This document shows, piece after piece, positions 947 to 6,068 of a stretch of 22,552 bases of DNA. Source of the DNA: a virus; IMG/VR virus record IMGVR_UViG_3300050821_004433, positions 1 to 22,552 of that record, one strand, 5' to 3'. The stretch's first letter is position 1, and each line of letters begins with the position of its first letter. Both the position numbers and the translations under genes were made by a program. Below the pieces are notes generated by a model. The model was not told the origin of the DNA, made no database searches, and was given only the letters and a program-made list of their open reading frames with translations.

Positions 947-1569
947 GCGACTATTCCGACTTTTGTGCGCAGATCGCGGAATGGTGCAACCGCCAGGATT
1001 GGTCGCAGAATCTCGTTGGCTCGTTCGTTCTTATGGCCAATCAAAAGTTCAACCAGGAACTCCGAATTTCGCGGATGATCGGGATGGCGGAAAACACCGT
1101 TACTTGCCGCTGTTCGACGTTGCCCGACGATTGGCTGGAGAGCGATCTGGTCTTGATGGCGAGCGAGCAAGTGCCAGGCGGCTGGAAGCCGATTCGCTAC
1201 AAAGCGAGGGACGAATTCTTCAAGCTGCCAGACAAATGGTCGTGCAACCATTACACAGTCGAAGGGCGAACGCTGTTCTTTGGCGGCACGCCGGACGAGA
1301 CGGAAGGGCGCGCGTTTCAGCTCTATTATTTCCAAGAAGTGCCGATCTTTTCGGACACGATACCAAGCTGGATTTATACAAAATACCCGTCGCTCTACCT
1401 CTCCGCGGCGCTGATGCACGCCTATCTGCATGCGATCGGTGAAGAGGGCCAGGCGGCGGGGGCGAAACAACTCACCGAAGACACGATTCAGAAGCTCAAC
1501 AACGAACACAACCTCTCCAAGGCGAGCGGCTCGAGACTCACGCGCACGAGGGTCAGGAGTTTCGGCTGA
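943..1569 (+). CDS. Head-tail adaptor/connector-like phage protein
   Basis: The 208-aa protein starts at GTG 943 within a GTGA overlap. It shows the plan of podo/siphovirus adaptor proteins that sit under the portal ring: an N-terminal helical part (YSDFCAQIAEWCNRQD), a central LPDDWLE segment, a beta-rich middle (YTVEGRTLFFGG), and a C-terminal WIYTKYPSLYLSAALMHAYL helix typical of the family's Pxl-YL-aaL-A signature. The role would be to connect portal and tail and to hold packaged DNA. The tail seems trimmed for a charged end (SRLTRTRVRSFG). The family assignment is from remembered motifs, not from a search. Confidence 0.6.
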   Translation: MSDYSDFCAQIAEWCNRQDWSQNLVGSFVLMANQKFNQELRISRMIGMAENTVTCRCSTLPDDWLESDLVLMASEQVPGGWKPIRYKARDEFFKLPDKWSCNHYTVEGRTLFFGGTPDETEGRAFQLYYFQEVPIFSDTIPSWIYTKYPSLYLSAALMHAYLHAIGEEGQAAGAKQLTEDTIQKLNNEHNLSKASGSRLTRTRVRSFG

Positions 1570-3884
1570 TGAACGATCAGTGGATTCCATCTCCGCCTCA
1601 ACCGCCGCCGACATGGACGCCTAACCCGCTGCCGCCGTCGAACGAATGGAGCGACACGGAGGCTTGCGCCGCGCCGAGCGGGCCTTCGATCGTCGATGGC
1701 ATCGTTATCACCGGCGTGCCGGCGACGGTGAGCTCGCTCTATTGGCAGGTGAGCCTCAACGATGGCTCGAGTCCGCCGAATTTTCAGATCAATCATCTCG
1801 ACGGCAAGGGCGCTGTGCTCGACGCTGCGCTGCAGATCTCTGGCGCTGATCTCTCAGCCACTTTCGCGGGTCCGGTCTACCTGGCGCGCGATCCGGTCGA
1901 GCCGATGGAGGCGGTGACTCTCGAATATCTCGAGGCGCATGGGGCGGGCGTCGAGGAAGCGCCGTCAGATGGTCAGACTTATGGGCGGACTTCAGGAGCT
2001 TGGAACGTAGTTGTTCCGGCCAGCGGTGGCACTTTTTCTGGACCGACCAACCTGGGCGCGGGCGGCGCGGTCACCTCGGGCGCGCTCTTATTCGCCGGAA
2101 ATGCTGTTTGTTCGTTGCCCACGGTTGCTCAATTAGAGATCGGCGGCGGCTCTGCAGGCCAGGTGCCGGCGACCGATGGCAACGGCAATTTGTCCTGGGT
2201 CACGCCGGTTACCGGCGGGCCTTATCTGCCGCTCTCGGGCGGCACAGTCACGGGCAGCTTGACGGTCAACCAGGTGCTCACCGTTCAGGGGAGCAATTCA
2301 CTGGTGCTCAACGCGCCGGTGACTGGCGGCAATCAGCGCGCCATCTTGAGCATGGCCGCCAATGTCACGCGCTGGCAGTTAGCGCTGGGCGACGGAACGG
2401 CTGAAGGGGCAAATAACGCCGGGGCGAATTTCAACTTGTCGGCCTACAGCACGACCGGCGGGTTTCTCGGCAATTGGCTGACCATCGCGCGGGCGGACGG
2501 TTCGACCGTGTTCAACGGGACCGGCATCACTGTCAATGGCGGCCTGGCGGTCAATGGGCTTTTCGCCGTCAACAGCCTCGGCAATTTCTATCTTCCCGGC
2601 GGCTCGGCTGGCCAGGTGCTCACGACCAATGGCTCGGGCCTTTTGTCCTGGACGACGCCTGCGGCTGGCGGATCGACGGTCACCATCAGCGACACGGCGC
2701 CGGCGAGCCCCACCGTAGGGGCGCTGTGGTGGGATTCTGTCGGGGGTCAGATGTACCTCCGTTATCAGGATCCCAATACGATCCAATGGGTTCCGACGAC
2801 CAACGCCGCCAGCCTTCCGCCGCCCGCGTCGACGACGGTATTGGGCTCGGTCAAGGTCGATGGGACGTCGATCAAGGCGGCGGCGGACGGCACGATTTCG
2901 ACCGTGCTTATCCCGATGGGCGACAACAGGCTCATCAACGGCGACATGCGGATCGATCAGCGCAACAACGGCGCGAGCGGCGCGGCGAACAACGTCTACA
3001 CGATTGATCGTTGGTTTTACGGCGCGACACAAGCAAGCAAGGGAAATTGGGCTCGTAATAGTAGCGGGTCTGGTGTGCCGGGGCCTGCCGGGTTTCCCTA
3101 TTGTCTCGGCTTTGCATCGTCGTCGGCTTACGCTTCGCTGGCGACTGATAACTTTTATTTCCAACAACGGATCGAAGCCGACATGATTAGCGATTTCGCT
3201 TGGGGAACGAGCGGAGCGCAGCCGGTCACATTGTCGTTTTGGGTTTATTCCAGCCTGACAGGCACATTTAGCGGCTGTCTAGAAAACGGTGCGGCGAATA
3301 GAGGTTATCCATTCAGCTTTTCCATTCCGGTTGCGAACACATGGACTAGGATCGTCGTCATCATCCCCGGCGATACGGGCGGCACATGGACGTTGAGCGG
3401 CAACGGCGTTGGGCTGTATGCGATCTTCGATTTGGGCAGTGGAGCAAATTTCCGCGCCCCTGCTGGGGCGTGGGCGACCGGCAACTATGTCGGCGCGACC
3501 GGCGCGGTGAGCGTCGTCGCCACCAACGGCGCGACTTTCTATCTGACCGGCGTCAAGTTAGAGATCGGCAGCGTCGCAACGCCCTACAACCGGCAGTCGC
3601 TGGCCAAGTGTTTGGCCGATTGCCAGAGGTATTATCAGGTATTAGCATCAATGCAACTAGGTGGAAACTCGCAAGTAACTGGTCCTATTACAACTGCGGC
3701 GATCCCGCTCTCTCCACAAATGCGCGCACAGCCTACTGTTACAACAAGTAATCTTTCGTATGGTAATGCGTCGGCATTAACTCTTGCTCCTTCTAGTAGT
3801 AATGTTGTTCAAACATTTCTATCAGTGACTGCTGTTGGCGCATGGAACGCAAACTTCAATATGCTTTCTAGCGCGGAGCTTTAA
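1569..3884 (+). CDS. Tail fibre protein 1 with C-terminal carbohydrate-binding-like module
   Basis: The 771-aa protein begins at ATG 1569 in a TGATG overlap. It has a Pro-rich N-terminus (residues 1-35), a virion-attachment-like part, and a repetitive beta-rich shaft with LPLSGGTVTGSLTVNQ. The shaft contains a duplicated segment at about 194-213 and 345-364 (GSAGQV..T.G.G.LSW.TP). A linker (DTAPASPTVGALWWDS) follows. From about 452 it carries the module starting NRLINGDMRIDQ and ending LADCQRYY at about 690, common in phage receptor-binding fibres and sandwich-like in predicted strand content. The last 80 or so residues are a tip encoded by AT-richer DNA. The module is repeated in the next gene. 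The receptor is unknown. Confidence 0.85.
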   Translation: MNDQWIPSPPQPPPTWTPNPLPPSNEWSDTEACAAPSGPSIVDGIVITGVPATVSSLYWQVSLNDGSSPPNFQINHLDGKGAVLDAALQISGADLSATFAGPVYLARDPVEPMEAVTLEYLEAHGAGVEEAPSDGQTYGRTSGAWNVVVPASGGTFSGPTNLGAGGAVTSGALLFAGNAVCSLPTVAQLEIGGGSAGQVPATDGNGNLSWVTPVTGGPYLPLSGGTVTGSLTVNQVLTVQGSNSLVLNAPVTGGNQRAILSMAANVTRWQLALGDGTAEGANNAGANFNLSAYSTTGGFLGNWLTIARADGSTVFNGTGITVNGGLAVNGLFAVNSLGNFYLPGGSAGQVLTTNGSGLLSWTTPAAGGSTVTISDTAPASPTVGALWWDSVGGQMYLRYQDPNTIQWVPTTNAASLPPPASTTVLGSVKVDGTSIKAAADGTISTVLIPMGDNRLINGDMRIDQRNNGASGAANNVYTIDRWFYGATQASKGNWARNSSGSGVPGPAGFPYCLGFASSSAYASLATDNFYFQQRIEADMISDFAWGTSGAQPVTLSFWVYSSLTGTFSGCLENGAANRGYPFSFSIPVANTWTRIVVIIPGDTGGTWTLSGNGVGLYAIFDLGSGANFRAPAGAWATGNYVGATGAVSVVATNGATFYLTGVKLEIGSVATPYNRQSLAKCLADCQRYYQVLASMQLGGNSQVTGPITTAAIPLSPQMRAQPTVTTSNLSYGNASALTLAPSSSNVVQTFLSVTAVGAWNANFNMLSSAEL
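3576..3634 (+). repeat. Direct repeat A1, copy in fibre 1
   Basis: The 59 bases match 4692-4750 with one mismatch (3590 C against 4706 T), including 44 identical bases in a row (3591-3634). They encode ATPYNRQSLAKCLADCQRYY. Neighbouring DNA matches less well, so the identity looks recent or conserved by recombination. Confidence 0.9.
3635..3869 (+). other. Divergent AT-richer receptor-tip segment of fibre 1
   Basis: The 235 bases follow the near-identical repeat and are visibly richer in A/T than the shaft (for example, many AGT, ACT, GTT codons). The counterpart in fibre 2 (4751-4982) is three bases shorter, in the same frame, and only weakly similar in protein (PQMRAQPTVT against SSMRIAPTIT). 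Similarity resumes at 3870. This is the expected layout of a variable receptor-contact tip. Confidence 0.6.
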
Positions 3885-3907
3885 CCATGACCACTACGCA
3901 AGTCTGA
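3870..3907 (+). repeat. Direct repeat B1: fibre end plus fossil start of the 5000 gene
   Basis: The 38 bases match 4983-5020 at 34 positions. They hold the last fibre codons (SAEL), the stop, the ribosome binding site GGAG, and the first codons of the gene at 5000. Here the seventh codon is TGA instead of TGG, so the copied gene is truncated to MTTTQV. Confidence 0.88.
3887..3907 (+). pseudogene. Six-codon remnant of the fibre-associated gene, possible reinitiation leader
   Basis: ATG ACC ACT ACG CAA GTC TGA reads MTTTQV-stop and lines up with MTYTQVW, the start of the intact gene at 5000. A GGAG site at 3875-3878 lies a normal distance upstream. The stop TGA (3905-3907) is one base before the ATG of fibre 2 (3909), which lacks its own ribosome binding site. 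Ribosomes ending here could restart at 3909. The remnant origin is strongly supported by the aligned copy; the leader role is inference. Confidence 0.65.
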
Positions 3908-3908
3908 T

Positions 3909-4997
3909 ATGATTGACTTCCCCGCCAGCCCCACCGTCGGTCAGCAGTTCACCGCTGCGGGCGTGACTTGGGTTTGGGACGGGACGAAGTGGGCCGCGAG
4001 CGGCCTCTCCATCGCTTACGTGCCGCTGGCCGGGTTCGTCCCGGCGATGAATGACAACAGAATTATCAATGGAGATATGCGTATAGACCAAAGATGGAAC
4101 GGCGCGAGCGGGACGGCGAATGGATATACGGTTGATCGGTGGCAGTATTTAGGGAGCTTGGTGAAGGGAACGTGGCAGCGAGTTCCTACCAACACAGCGG
4201 CGTTTGGCTTTCTTTATTGCCTCAGTTTCATATCGTCCTCGGCATATGCGTCTATACCAGCCGACTATTTTGTATTTACGCAATTTATTGAAGCCGACAT
4301 GGTCGGTGATTTCGCTTGGGGAACGGCAAATGCGCAGCCAGTTACACTTTCGTTCTGGGTTAATTGTTCACTGGCGGGAACTTTCAGCGGCGCAATTCGC
4401 AACGCTGCCGCCACACGTTCATACCCTTTCATATATTCGGTTTCGGCCGCGAACACCTGGACGAAAATTACCATTACTATTCCCGGCGACGCTACTGGGA
4501 CATGGGTCTCTAGCGGCAACGCCGCTTCGGTTCATGCGATCTTCGATCTTGGATCTGGTTCGACTTCTCGCGGACCCTCTGGCGCATGGGCGTCGGCAAA
4601 TTATTTGGGCGCGATCGGCGCGCAGAGCATCGTCGCCGTCAACGCCGCGACCTTCTATGTGACCGGCGTCAAGCTCGAGATTGGCTCTGTGGCAACGCCC
4701 TACAATCGGCAGTCGCTGGCCAAGTGTTTGGCCGATTGCCAGAGGTATTACAGGAACGACATAGCAGTTTACGCTAATGCATATGCATTAGCCGGTAATA
4801 ATGTTGGTTCAACTGTCTCATACTCATCGATGCGGATTGCACCTACAATTACGTTTTCCGGGGCTTCTTATGCTAATGCAAGCGGCGTAGCAGTTGGCTA
4901 TGCTCCAACAACTGGTAGTGTAGGTATTATAGCCACAGCAACAGCAACTGGAACCGCGAGCTATGCTGCTACAGTGGTTATGAGCGCGGAGCTTTGA
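3909..4997 (+). CDS. Tail fibre protein 2, short paralogue of the fibre 1 C-terminus
   Basis: The 362-aa protein lacks a shaft. Residues 1-45 are a short linker (FPASPTVGQQF...WVWDGTKWAA) of the type found in phage tail proteins. Residues 48-281 repeat the module of fibre 1 (NDNRIINGDMRIDQ to LADCQRYY), and residues 282-362 form a divergent tip ending SAEL like fibre 1. Without an attachment domain it may assemble onto fibre 1 or the collar fibre, or act as an alternative adhesin. Its start follows the TGA of the micro-ORF by one base. Conserved positions across the two modules suggest both are functional rather than one being decayed. Confidence 0.82.
   Translation: MIDFPASPTVGQQFTAAGVTWVWDGTKWAASGLSIAYVPLAGFVPAMNDNRIINGDMRIDQRWNGASGTANGYTVDRWQYLGSLVKGTWQRVPTNTAAFGFLYCLSFISSSAYASIPADYFVFTQFIEADMVGDFAWGTANAQPVTLSFWVNCSLAGTFSGAIRNAAATRSYPFIYSVSAANTWTKITITIPGDATGTWVSSGNAASVHAIFDLGSGSTSRGPSGAWASANYLGAIGAQSIVAVNAATFYVTGVKLEIGSVATPYNRQSLAKCLADCQRYYRNDIAVYANAYALAGNNVGSTVSYSSMRIAPTITFSGASYANASGVAVGYAPTTGSVGIIATATATGTASYAATVVMSAEL
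4692..4750 (+). repeat. Direct repeat A2, copy in fibre 2
   Basis: This is the partner of 3576-3634, with 58 of 59 bases identical and an offset of 1116 bases. It marks the boundary between the conserved module and the variable tip of fibre 2. Confidence 0.9.
4751..4982 (+). other. Divergent AT-richer receptor-tip segment of fibre 2
   Basis: The 232 bases encode an Ala/Gly/Ser/Thr-rich tip (GIIATATATGTASYAATVV). They are A/T-richer than the preceding module and lie between repeats A2 and B2. This is equivalent in place and frame to 3635-3869 of fibre 1. Confidence 0.6.
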
Positions 4998-5020
4998 CCA
5001 TGACCTATACGCAAGTCTGG
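4983..5020 (+). repeat. Direct repeat B2, intact copy
   Basis: This is the partner of 3870-3907 at an offset of 1113 bases. Here codon seven is TGG, so the gene at 5000 stays open. It includes GGAG at 4988-4991, eight bases before ATG 5000. Confidence 0.88.
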
Positions 5021-5290
5021 GATGCCATGCAGAACCAAGTCCACGACGGCATGATCCAGCGCGACGAGGATGGCGCGTTCGTGCCGTTTGACCCCGACAA
5101 CCGCGACTATCAGGACTATCTGGCCTGGCTCGACGAGGGCAATGAGCCTAATCCACCGCCCGCGATTCCTACGCCGCCGATCGAAGAGTCGCCGCCGCCC
5201 GACATCCATGAAGTCAACGCCCAGGTGCAGGACATCGACGCGCGGCTGACGGATCTCGAGACAATCGTGGGGAGACAGGCGCGTGGTTGA
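5000..5290 (+). CDS. Small tail-fibre-associated protein
   Basis: The 96-aa product begins MTYTQVWDAM and has the segment FVPFDPDNRDYQDYLAWLDE followed by GNEPNP, a hallmark of short proteins or domains encoded beside phage tail fibres. A Pro-rich linker (residues ~48-66) and a C-terminal heptad-like helix (VNAQVQDIDARLTDLETIV) suggest a small oligomer. It may be an accessory or assembly factor for the fibres. ATG 5000 has GGAG eight bases upstream; TTG 4994 is in frame but less likely. Its first seven codons are copied between the fibre genes. Confidence 0.68.
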   Translation: MTYTQVWDAMQNQVHDGMIQRDEDGAFVPFDPDNRDYQDYLAWLDEGNEPNPPPAIPTPPIEESPPPDIHEVNAQVQDIDARLTDLETIVGRQARG

Positions 5291-6068
5291 GACATTAACA
5301 AAAAACTATAGTTGGACGAAGCCGGAAATCACGGGCTCGGCGGCGACTTGGGGTGGCTTTCTCAACAACGATCTCGACGAGATCGACGCCCTTGTCTTCG
5401 CCAATCAGCAGGGCATCAATCCGATCGGCTCGGGCGCGCTCTGGTTCACCGCGACGCCGCCGGCGAACTGGCTGATCTGCGACGGTTCGTCGCTCTCTAC
5501 TACGACTTATGCGGCGCTCTACGCGGCGATCGGCTACACCTACGGCGGCTCAGGGCCAAACTTCAACCTGCCGAATCTACAACTCAATTTCCCCATCGGC
5601 GCAGGGGCCGGCCTGGCGCTTGGCGCGAGTGGCGGCGAGGCGACGCATGTTCTTACGACGGCCGAGCTCGCGCCTCATCCGCACCCAATTATCGACGTCG
5701 CCCACACGCACGGCGCGTCGCAAGGCGCGCATGCGCACGCCATCGCGACCGGGGCGCATGCGCACGCCATCCATACCGGGGCTCACGCTCATAGCGGCGT
5801 TGCTGTTGGTCTCACAGCATCGGGAGGGGCGATCCAGGGCGGAGCGCCAGGCAATCTTCAAATGGGGAACACCAGCACGGCTGGCGATCTCGGCGGCAAC
5901 ACCGATACTGCCGGCAATCTCGGCGGCAACACCGACACGCAACAACCAGGGGTGACGGTTAACGCCTCGGGCACTGGTCTTTCAACCACGCAGAACGCCG
6001 GCGGCGGCGCGGCGCACAACAACCTGCCGCCCTATGTCGGAATTAACTTCATAATTCGGTATCTATGA
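5283..6068 (+). CDS. Tail collar domain fibre protein with His-rich segment
   Basis: The 261-aa protein starts at GTG 5283 with GGGGAG eight bases upstream. Residues 1-45 resemble the N-termini of tail proteins (WTKPEITGSAATWGGFLNNDLDEID). Residues ~53-115 are a phage tail collar domain (PPANWLICDGSSLSTTTYAA, YTYGGSGPNFNLPNL). From His132 to His170 there are five H-x-H motifs (HPH, HTH, three HAH). Then come Gly/Asn repeats (LGGNTDT twice) and the typical end LPPYVGINFIIRYL. Such proteins form short fibres or spikes on the baseplate or collar. H-x-H motifs bind metal along the T4 gp37 fibre axis, so metal-stabilised trimerisation is plausible. Confidence 0.85.
   Translation: MVETLTKNYSWTKPEITGSAATWGGFLNNDLDEIDALVFANQQGINPIGSGALWFTATPPANWLICDGSSLSTTTYAALYAAIGYTYGGSGPNFNLPNLQLNFPIGAGAGLALGASGGEATHVLTTAELAPHPHPIIDVAHTHGASQGAHAHAIATGAHAHAIHTGAHAHSGVAVGLTASGGAIQGGAPGNLQMGNTSTAGDLGGNTDTAGNLGGNTDTQQPGVTVNASGTGLSTTQNAGGGAAHNNLPPYVGINFIIRYL
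5676..5792 (+). repeat. H-x-H repeat coding segment
   Basis: The unit GGGGCGCATGCGCACGCCAT and relatives recur, encoding GAHAHAI-type peptides in the collar protein (His132-His170). This is a coding repeat, not CRISPR: the spacing is about 27 bases and always in frame. Confidence 0.7.

Follow-up and report, generated by a model that had tools for sequence, protein, structure and literature searches.

In the tail spike cluster of Ackermannviridae (tsp1-4), several receptor-binding genes are arranged in tandem and their homologous segments permit recombination. When a fifth spike gene was added to such a phage, the enlarged cluster collapsed by recombination into a tsp4-tsp5 chimera (PMC11414711). 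In modular tailspikes (Gamaleya-, Justusliebig-, Kuttervirus and others), conserved DNA flanks the swapped domains and was proposed to provide recombination hotspots; neither an array of variable length nor a translational relay is described in the accessible part of that work (PMC10408124). In lambdoid phages, Rad52-like recombinases exchange stf/tfa via short diverged homology (PMC3945230). Reporter work on translational coupling by termination-reinitiation found the final 15 nt of an upstream gene to be sufficient and overlaps of -4, -1 and -8 to be favoured, while at about 20 nt hardly any coupling was left (PMC10666635). Finally, cyanophage tail fibres with a carbohydrate-binding domain (Synechococcus S-B28, MA01 and S-N03; Prochlorococcus P-TIM68) belong to the same distal family as the fibres described below, with 36-43% identity. 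Synechococcus phage MA01 (L198:4698-6951) has consecutive fibre genes of this family, which suggests that tandem fibres are common in it, and P-TIM68 has behind its fibre a stretch resembling g98, the small gene discussed below. The cyanophages differ from the phage analysed here in host and genome type.

Here, an IMG/VR virus record of 22,552 bases from a soil phage was analysed; this whole stretch is referred to as the window. As in the Ackermannviridae-type arrays, a variable number of homologous fibre genes and exchange at shared segments were found by comparison of related loci (numbered with the prefix L), the fibres being presumed receptor binders. The tsp4-tsp5 chimera resembles the difference between loci L006 and L079. 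In contrast, spikes of Ackermannviridae are joined by N-terminal XD/TD docking domains, recombination was proposed at conserved 5' ends, and no leftover start of a downstream gene is described between the genes in the accessible part of PMC11414711. The lambdoid stf/tfa exchange is an experimental system of temperate phages, whereas the evidence presented here is comparative. No recombinase was identified in the window.

We favour, with a probability of roughly 0.7, the reading that the locus is a variable-length array of distal fibre cassettes exchanged by homologous recombination, in which a relic of g98 serves as a ribosome relay. It builds on the observed borders and their recurrence, on mosaicism, spacing rules and predicted folds, and recombination at the joints would be the underlying mechanism. 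Positions 2916-5020 would then belong to a tandem array whose distal tail-fibre cassettes are interchangeable. Each cassette would consist of a CBM4-like body, a pre-tip joint, an H-type-lectin-like tip and a 3' border, in which the SAEL stop codons, containing a GGAG, are followed by the first g98 codons. Modular receptor-binding proteins are already known, and the recurrent relay relic seems to be new; no such relic turned up in searches of the open-access literature for tandem fibre duplications or for coupling involving fibre cassettes. For phages it is a practical problem how to gain extra receptor-binding genes while a densely packed and translationally coupled operon stays intact. Naturally occurring arrays with one, two or three cassettes, in which near-identical phages differ by a tip, a body or a complete unit, offer a ready record of the process of fibre-gene gain, and the relic mini-ORF may provide a simple rule for choosing insertion sites at which a new gene would still be translated.

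Gene order, repeated module and predicted folds

The genes around the locus are ordered endolysin, adaptor, fibre 1, fibre 2, g98, collar-domain tail protein and virion structural protein, and the fibre genes with their parts, the relic, the border, g98 and the collar-domain gene lie on the plus strand. Fibre gene 1 (1569..3884), an ORF of 771 aa, comprises a long shaft and a distal cassette. Fibre gene 2 (3909..4997), an ORF of 362 aa, comprises a 46-residue N-terminal part with a beta mini-domain, followed by body 2 and tip 2. Both matched the tail fiber protein family PHROG 4492, fibre 1 through its residues 362-762 (E=2e-48) and fibre 2 with E=8e-46. Behind the last fibre lies the intact small gene g98 (5000..5290), which matched PHROG 20370 of unknown function (E=7e-15) and carries the motif QRDEDGAF.PFDP.N.DYQ.YL.WL.EGN. 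In most relatives, too, it comes after the last fibre. The collar-domain tail protein follows at 5283..6068 (Pfam PF07484, E=1.7e-18). Neither the fibres nor g98 matched a family in Pfam or NCBIfam, and solved structures gave no match at the sequence level. Two shorter repeats were seen in this region. In the shaft of fibre 1 a segment is repeated (2144-2218 and 2597-2671; GGSAGQV..T.G.G.LSW.TP) with 75% identical DNA and a spacing of 453 bases, and the collar-domain gene contains a short 30-base tandem repeat at 5865-5924 (GNTSTAGDLGGNTDTAGNLGG).

The original prediction held that the fibre module and the border behind it are present twice, and this recurrence is real. Repeat families were found mechanically (D1 with a spacing of 1116, D5 of 1131 and D11 of 1113), and comparison of fibre 1 with fibre 2 by blastp (E=1e-109) and blastn (E=2e-77) gave values far above chance. 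Body 1 (2916..3635), which is CBM4-like by its homology to body 2, shares 68% DNA identity with body 2 (4047..4751) in a global alignment, and 67% amino acid identity over aligned columns. The border copy at 3870..3907, here called joint J3, is identical in 34 of 38 bases to 4983..5020, exactly as had been claimed (87% over 39 bases in the segment alignment); at 4983..5020 the sequence has its normal place, spanning the end of fibre 2 and the start of g98. The longest exact repeat in the window is 44 bp long (3591..3634, repeated at 4707-4750), codes for ...RQSLAKCLADCQRYY and forms the core of joint J2, just before the tip. The module had also been thought to recur up to the end of fibre 1 at 3884. 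This holds for the body, but not for an even recurrence to the end: the variable tip 1 (3636..3869) and tip 2 (4752..4982) share 51% DNA identity, which is the background level, and 22% amino acid identity, less than tip 1 shares with the tips of many other phages.

Folds were predicted for fibre 2. The AlphaFold model (mean pLDDT 82) consists of a small N-terminal beta domain, in which residues 1-31 form the short beta mini-domain, a jelly roll and the tip. Body 2 (model residues 49-259) was aligned to the CBM4 structure 4bj0 with Z 13.5 and an rmsd of 2.7 over 159 residues at 14% identity; a search of Pfam gave no match for the body. The body is thus a predicted jelly roll like those of CBM4 carbohydrate-binding modules and may bind glycans. 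Modelled alone, tip 2 (pLDDT 85) is predicted to form a six-stranded sandwich similar to H-type lectins and to the fibre tips of phages and pyocins. Z was 7.4-8.5 against discoidin II, Helix agglutinin, LKA1 gp49 and the Pam1 tailspike, 7.2-8.5 against discoidin II, Helix agglutinins and several phage tips, and 5.5-8.5 over the H-type lectins and phage or pyocin tips as a whole. These matches come from a second aligner and not from Foldseek, which with the tip alone returned no match at E under 0.001 (best E 0.1), and the H-type-lectin-like character of the tip is suggestive only. As predicted originally, two distal genes of receptor-binding type are present in tandem. Fold and position point to receptor binding by the fibres, and the cassettes may be used to determine host range.

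Array length and cassette exchange in related phages

Scans with the tail protein and the fibre revealed over 100 viral contigs with the fibre family or the gene neighbourhood. The close relatives are metagenomic contigs or fragments, many of them incomplete, and none is a cultured phage or has a known host. In many of these contigs, between one and three fibre genes bearing the distal module precede g98. Loci with one, two, three and four modules number 71, 35, 12 and 1, counts in which overlapping contigs partly remain. Relatives with a single fibre and the order fibre-g98-collar, as anticipated in the original prediction, do exist (e.g. L019, L029, L035, L063, L078 and L084). Mapped onto a tree of the tail protein from 50 loci, array length undergoes at least 16 changes, the tree being unrooted with respect to gain or loss. 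At three loci (L008:2602-6038, L007:836-4001 and L027:2061-5991) the CBM-type distal module is missing from the first fibre gene and present only in the second. Genome contigs were searched with the tail protein for a prophage that might indicate the host, and no match was obtained; a search of genome contigs with the fibre alignment returned distant fibres only, including some from Polynucleobacter, Janthinobacterium and Rhodopseudomonas.

The two fibre modules had been put down to a single tandem duplication within the locus, in which a unit of about 1.1 kb, comprising the fibre module and the start of g98, was copied and the copies then diverged. Such an event would account for the correctly placed border copy and for the spacing of 1113-1131 nt throughout, and the copied flank expected at the end of the unit is present in the window. 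However, the same flank recurs in other phages, and the cassettes of other phages are frequently nearer than the sister copy. For fibre 1, 28 foreign cassettes are closer, which places the sister copy 29th of 65 in identity rank; for fibre 2 there are 8 such cassettes and the sister copy ranks 9th. Of 34 non-redundant cassettes in multi-fibre arrays, four have their nearest relative within their own array, and mean cassette identity is 56.7% within arrays versus 54.3% between them (permutation p=0.07). Divergence along the unit is also uneven, with 44 identical bp beside 68% in the body, 51% in the tip and 34/38 in the border. In addition, the same kind of relic junction occurs in many phages that carry different cassettes, and near-identical cassettes stand at unlike positions in different phages (third in L075, first in L005). 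We therefore consider the single duplication improbable, and the claim of one event is not supported, given the closer cassettes elsewhere, the uneven divergence and the recurrent relic. An AU test did not reject the window bodies as sisters (p=0.25), although the best such tree is 29 log-units worse; identity ranks were used in place of this indecisive test. Because the test leaves fibres 1 and 2 as possible sisters, a very old duplication followed by exchange or replacement of the copies is possible.

Direct comparison of relatives revealed mosaics. Up to J2 of fibre 2, L006 and L079 agree at 99.9%, and beyond it they are unrelated; tip 2 of L006 matches the third tip of L079, and these arrays therefore differ by one unit joined at J2. 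Between L075 and L082 the bodies are 70% and 62.5% identical, the tips 95% and 100%. Cassette 3 of L075, which is followed by intact g98, equals cassette 1 of L005, behind which lie a relic and a further fibre; the two are 94% identical along 977 nt that end at GCAAGTCTG. L023 and L024 are 96-99% identical in the flanking genes, the fibre 1 shaft and the second cassette, while the first body is partly different (86%) and the first tips are unrelated. Near-identical phages thus differ in clean blocks, with the CBM4-like bodies and H-type-lectin-like tips swapped separately. Joints J1 and J2 are located at either end of the jelly roll, so that the exchanged blocks coincide with domains.

Excess synonymous codon identity amounted to 0.32 at J1, 0.44 at J2 (measured over 57 cassettes) and 0.76 at J3. 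The corresponding values were 0.16 for the body, 0.02 for the tip and 0.14 for a tail gene serving as control. Silent-site conservation of this kind would be expected if the joints were homogenised by recombination; for J3, a ribosome-binding role alone can explain the conservation. Joints look conserved in any pair, which biases apparent breakpoints into them, and only transitions between unrelated and >94% identical segments were counted as evidence of exchange. Breakpoint enrichment as a formal test was dropped, as conserved joints draw apparent breakpoints. In the favoured reading, related phages would exchange cassettes, bodies and tips, and arrays would grow and shrink between one and three fibre genes. 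Homologous recombination is the likeliest means, acting at J1, where the body starts, at J2, the pre-tip helix, and at the border, J3. In modular tailspikes, too, conserved DNA borders the exchanged domains.

A short conserved border next to variable tips could also be a site-specific recombination site, part of an invertible or shufflon-like switch, or belong to a diversity-generating retroelement. All cassettes point in the same direction, however, no reverse transcriptase or invertase was present among the ORFs scanned (the main ORFs of this 22.5-kb fragment), and two further joints, 45-90 nt long and located inside the gene, are also used for exchange. Of all the explanations considered, we regard this one as the least probable. 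Hardly more credible is an assembly artefact, in which strain mixtures in soil metagenomes were joined at short repeats into false arrays and false mosaics. The source contigs do come from complex metagenomes, and the joints are their most similar stretches. Against this, the array of the window was found again in L003 with 99.3% identity over 8,028 bp (from a sample that may be the same or a neighbouring one), an array piece is 99.9% identical over 2.3 kb between L068 and L071 from two data sets, the longest exact repeat in the window measures merely 44 bp, and tandem fibre+g98 units are also present in the assembly of a Polynucleobacter isolate (L119).

The g98 relic at fibre-fibre junctions

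Between the two fibre genes of the window lies a 21-nt mini-ORF (3887..3907, MTTTQV*) that corresponds to the beginning of g98, the gene downstream. The stop codon of the mini-ORF ends 1 nt 5' of the fibre 2 start codon, and a Shine-Dalgarno-like GGAG (3875..3878) is located 8 nt 5' of the relic ATG, within the last codons of fibre 1 (SAEL). The relic reads ATG ACC ACT ACG CAA GTC TGA, compared with ATG ACC TAT ACG CAA GTC TGG at 5000. The original prediction took the final codon for a single-base TGG-to-TGA change that cut the copied gene. This was rejected: in none of the relics does similarity to g98 extend past GTCTG, and a new fibre start (e.g. ATG ATC GAC TTC CCC) follows close behind. 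Since the DNA past GTCTG is not g98, the TGA is part of the junction and is better read as a putative recombination junction. The window relic has one mismatch to the relic of L005 and three to the window's own g98, and is therefore no fresh copy of the latter.

The border copy is not unique to the window. A relic was found at 16 non-redundant fibre-fibre junctions, de-duplicated by context, with the peptides MTTTQV*, MATTQV*, MTYTQV*, MTYMQV*, MTYTRV*, MTYTQA*, MTPTHA*, MTSTHA* and MTYTQVT*. Searches of viral contigs with exact relic patterns returned 3 and 6 stretches; diverged forms missed in this way were recovered by synteny. Few original events may lie behind the 16 relics. Of all junctions between fibres, about half have no relic and show a direct ATGA overlap or a gap of 2-3 nt, and the relic is therefore dispensable.

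The spacing of signals around the relic kept within narrow limits. GGAG lies 8-9 nt 5' of the relic ATG in 16 of 16 relic junctions, always inside the last codons of the upstream fibre, and, counted from the ATG of the following fibre, the relic stop lies at -8, -4 or +1 to +5 nt, again in all 16. This placement of the stop is reached by three structurally different sequence solutions, and its simulated chance is 0.055 per junction. Upstream of the next fibre ATG, at most 3 of 5 positions match GGAGG in 15 of the 16 junctions. The stop/start distances are alike to those of described termination-reinitiation coupling; the difference is that here recombination would have created the upstream ORF, as seven codons left over from an unrelated gene downstream. 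If the relic were absent, the fibre-fibre gaps would be 15-28 nt. Together with the GGAG and stop spacing and the published range of coupling, this makes a relay the likeliest role of the relic. Judged from these sequence signals, it probably relays ribosomes to the next fibre by termination-reinitiation. A fibre gene landing between another fibre and g98 would leave the g98 start behind as a seven-codon relic, the GGAG would set a ribosome on the relic ATG, and with the relic stop beside the next fibre start codon the same ribosome could reinitiate, so that all fibres would be translated from one operon. A more tentative idea is that the border has a dual purpose, its 38-45 bases being both a recombination joint, used to add or swap fibre cassettes, and, by means of the GGAG and the seven-codon relic, an automatic relay that would make an inserted cassette expressible at once.

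The cassette array could be real and the relic still a neutral scar without a translational role, with fibre 2 starting translation by itself. Many junctions lack the relic, short scars are expected where recombination joins sequences, and a possible single origin of the relic would have left little time for decay. We consider a neutral scar unlikely, although it is the strongest of the competing explanations: all 16 junctions, three structural forms among them, have retained the GGAG, the start codon and a stop that lies between -8 and +5 nt from the next start, and the start of fibre 2 has no Shine-Dalgarno sequence of its own.

A whole g98 between fibres was found in L141, L153, L162 and L119, and in L141 the g98 stop overlaps the next fibre ATG as ATGA. 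The Polynucleobacter isolate assembly (L119:3460-7459, on a chromosome contig) contains three complete fibre+g98 pairs in tandem. This repetition of the whole pair may represent the ancestral unit or a parallel case. A terminator-like sequence was observed behind the first two pairs of L119. In a distant clade (L058, L028 and L173), tandem fibres without a relic are connected by a different junction (CTTCTGACCATGTTGGATTTCCCC or similar), in which the next ATG follows 2 nt past the fibre stop.
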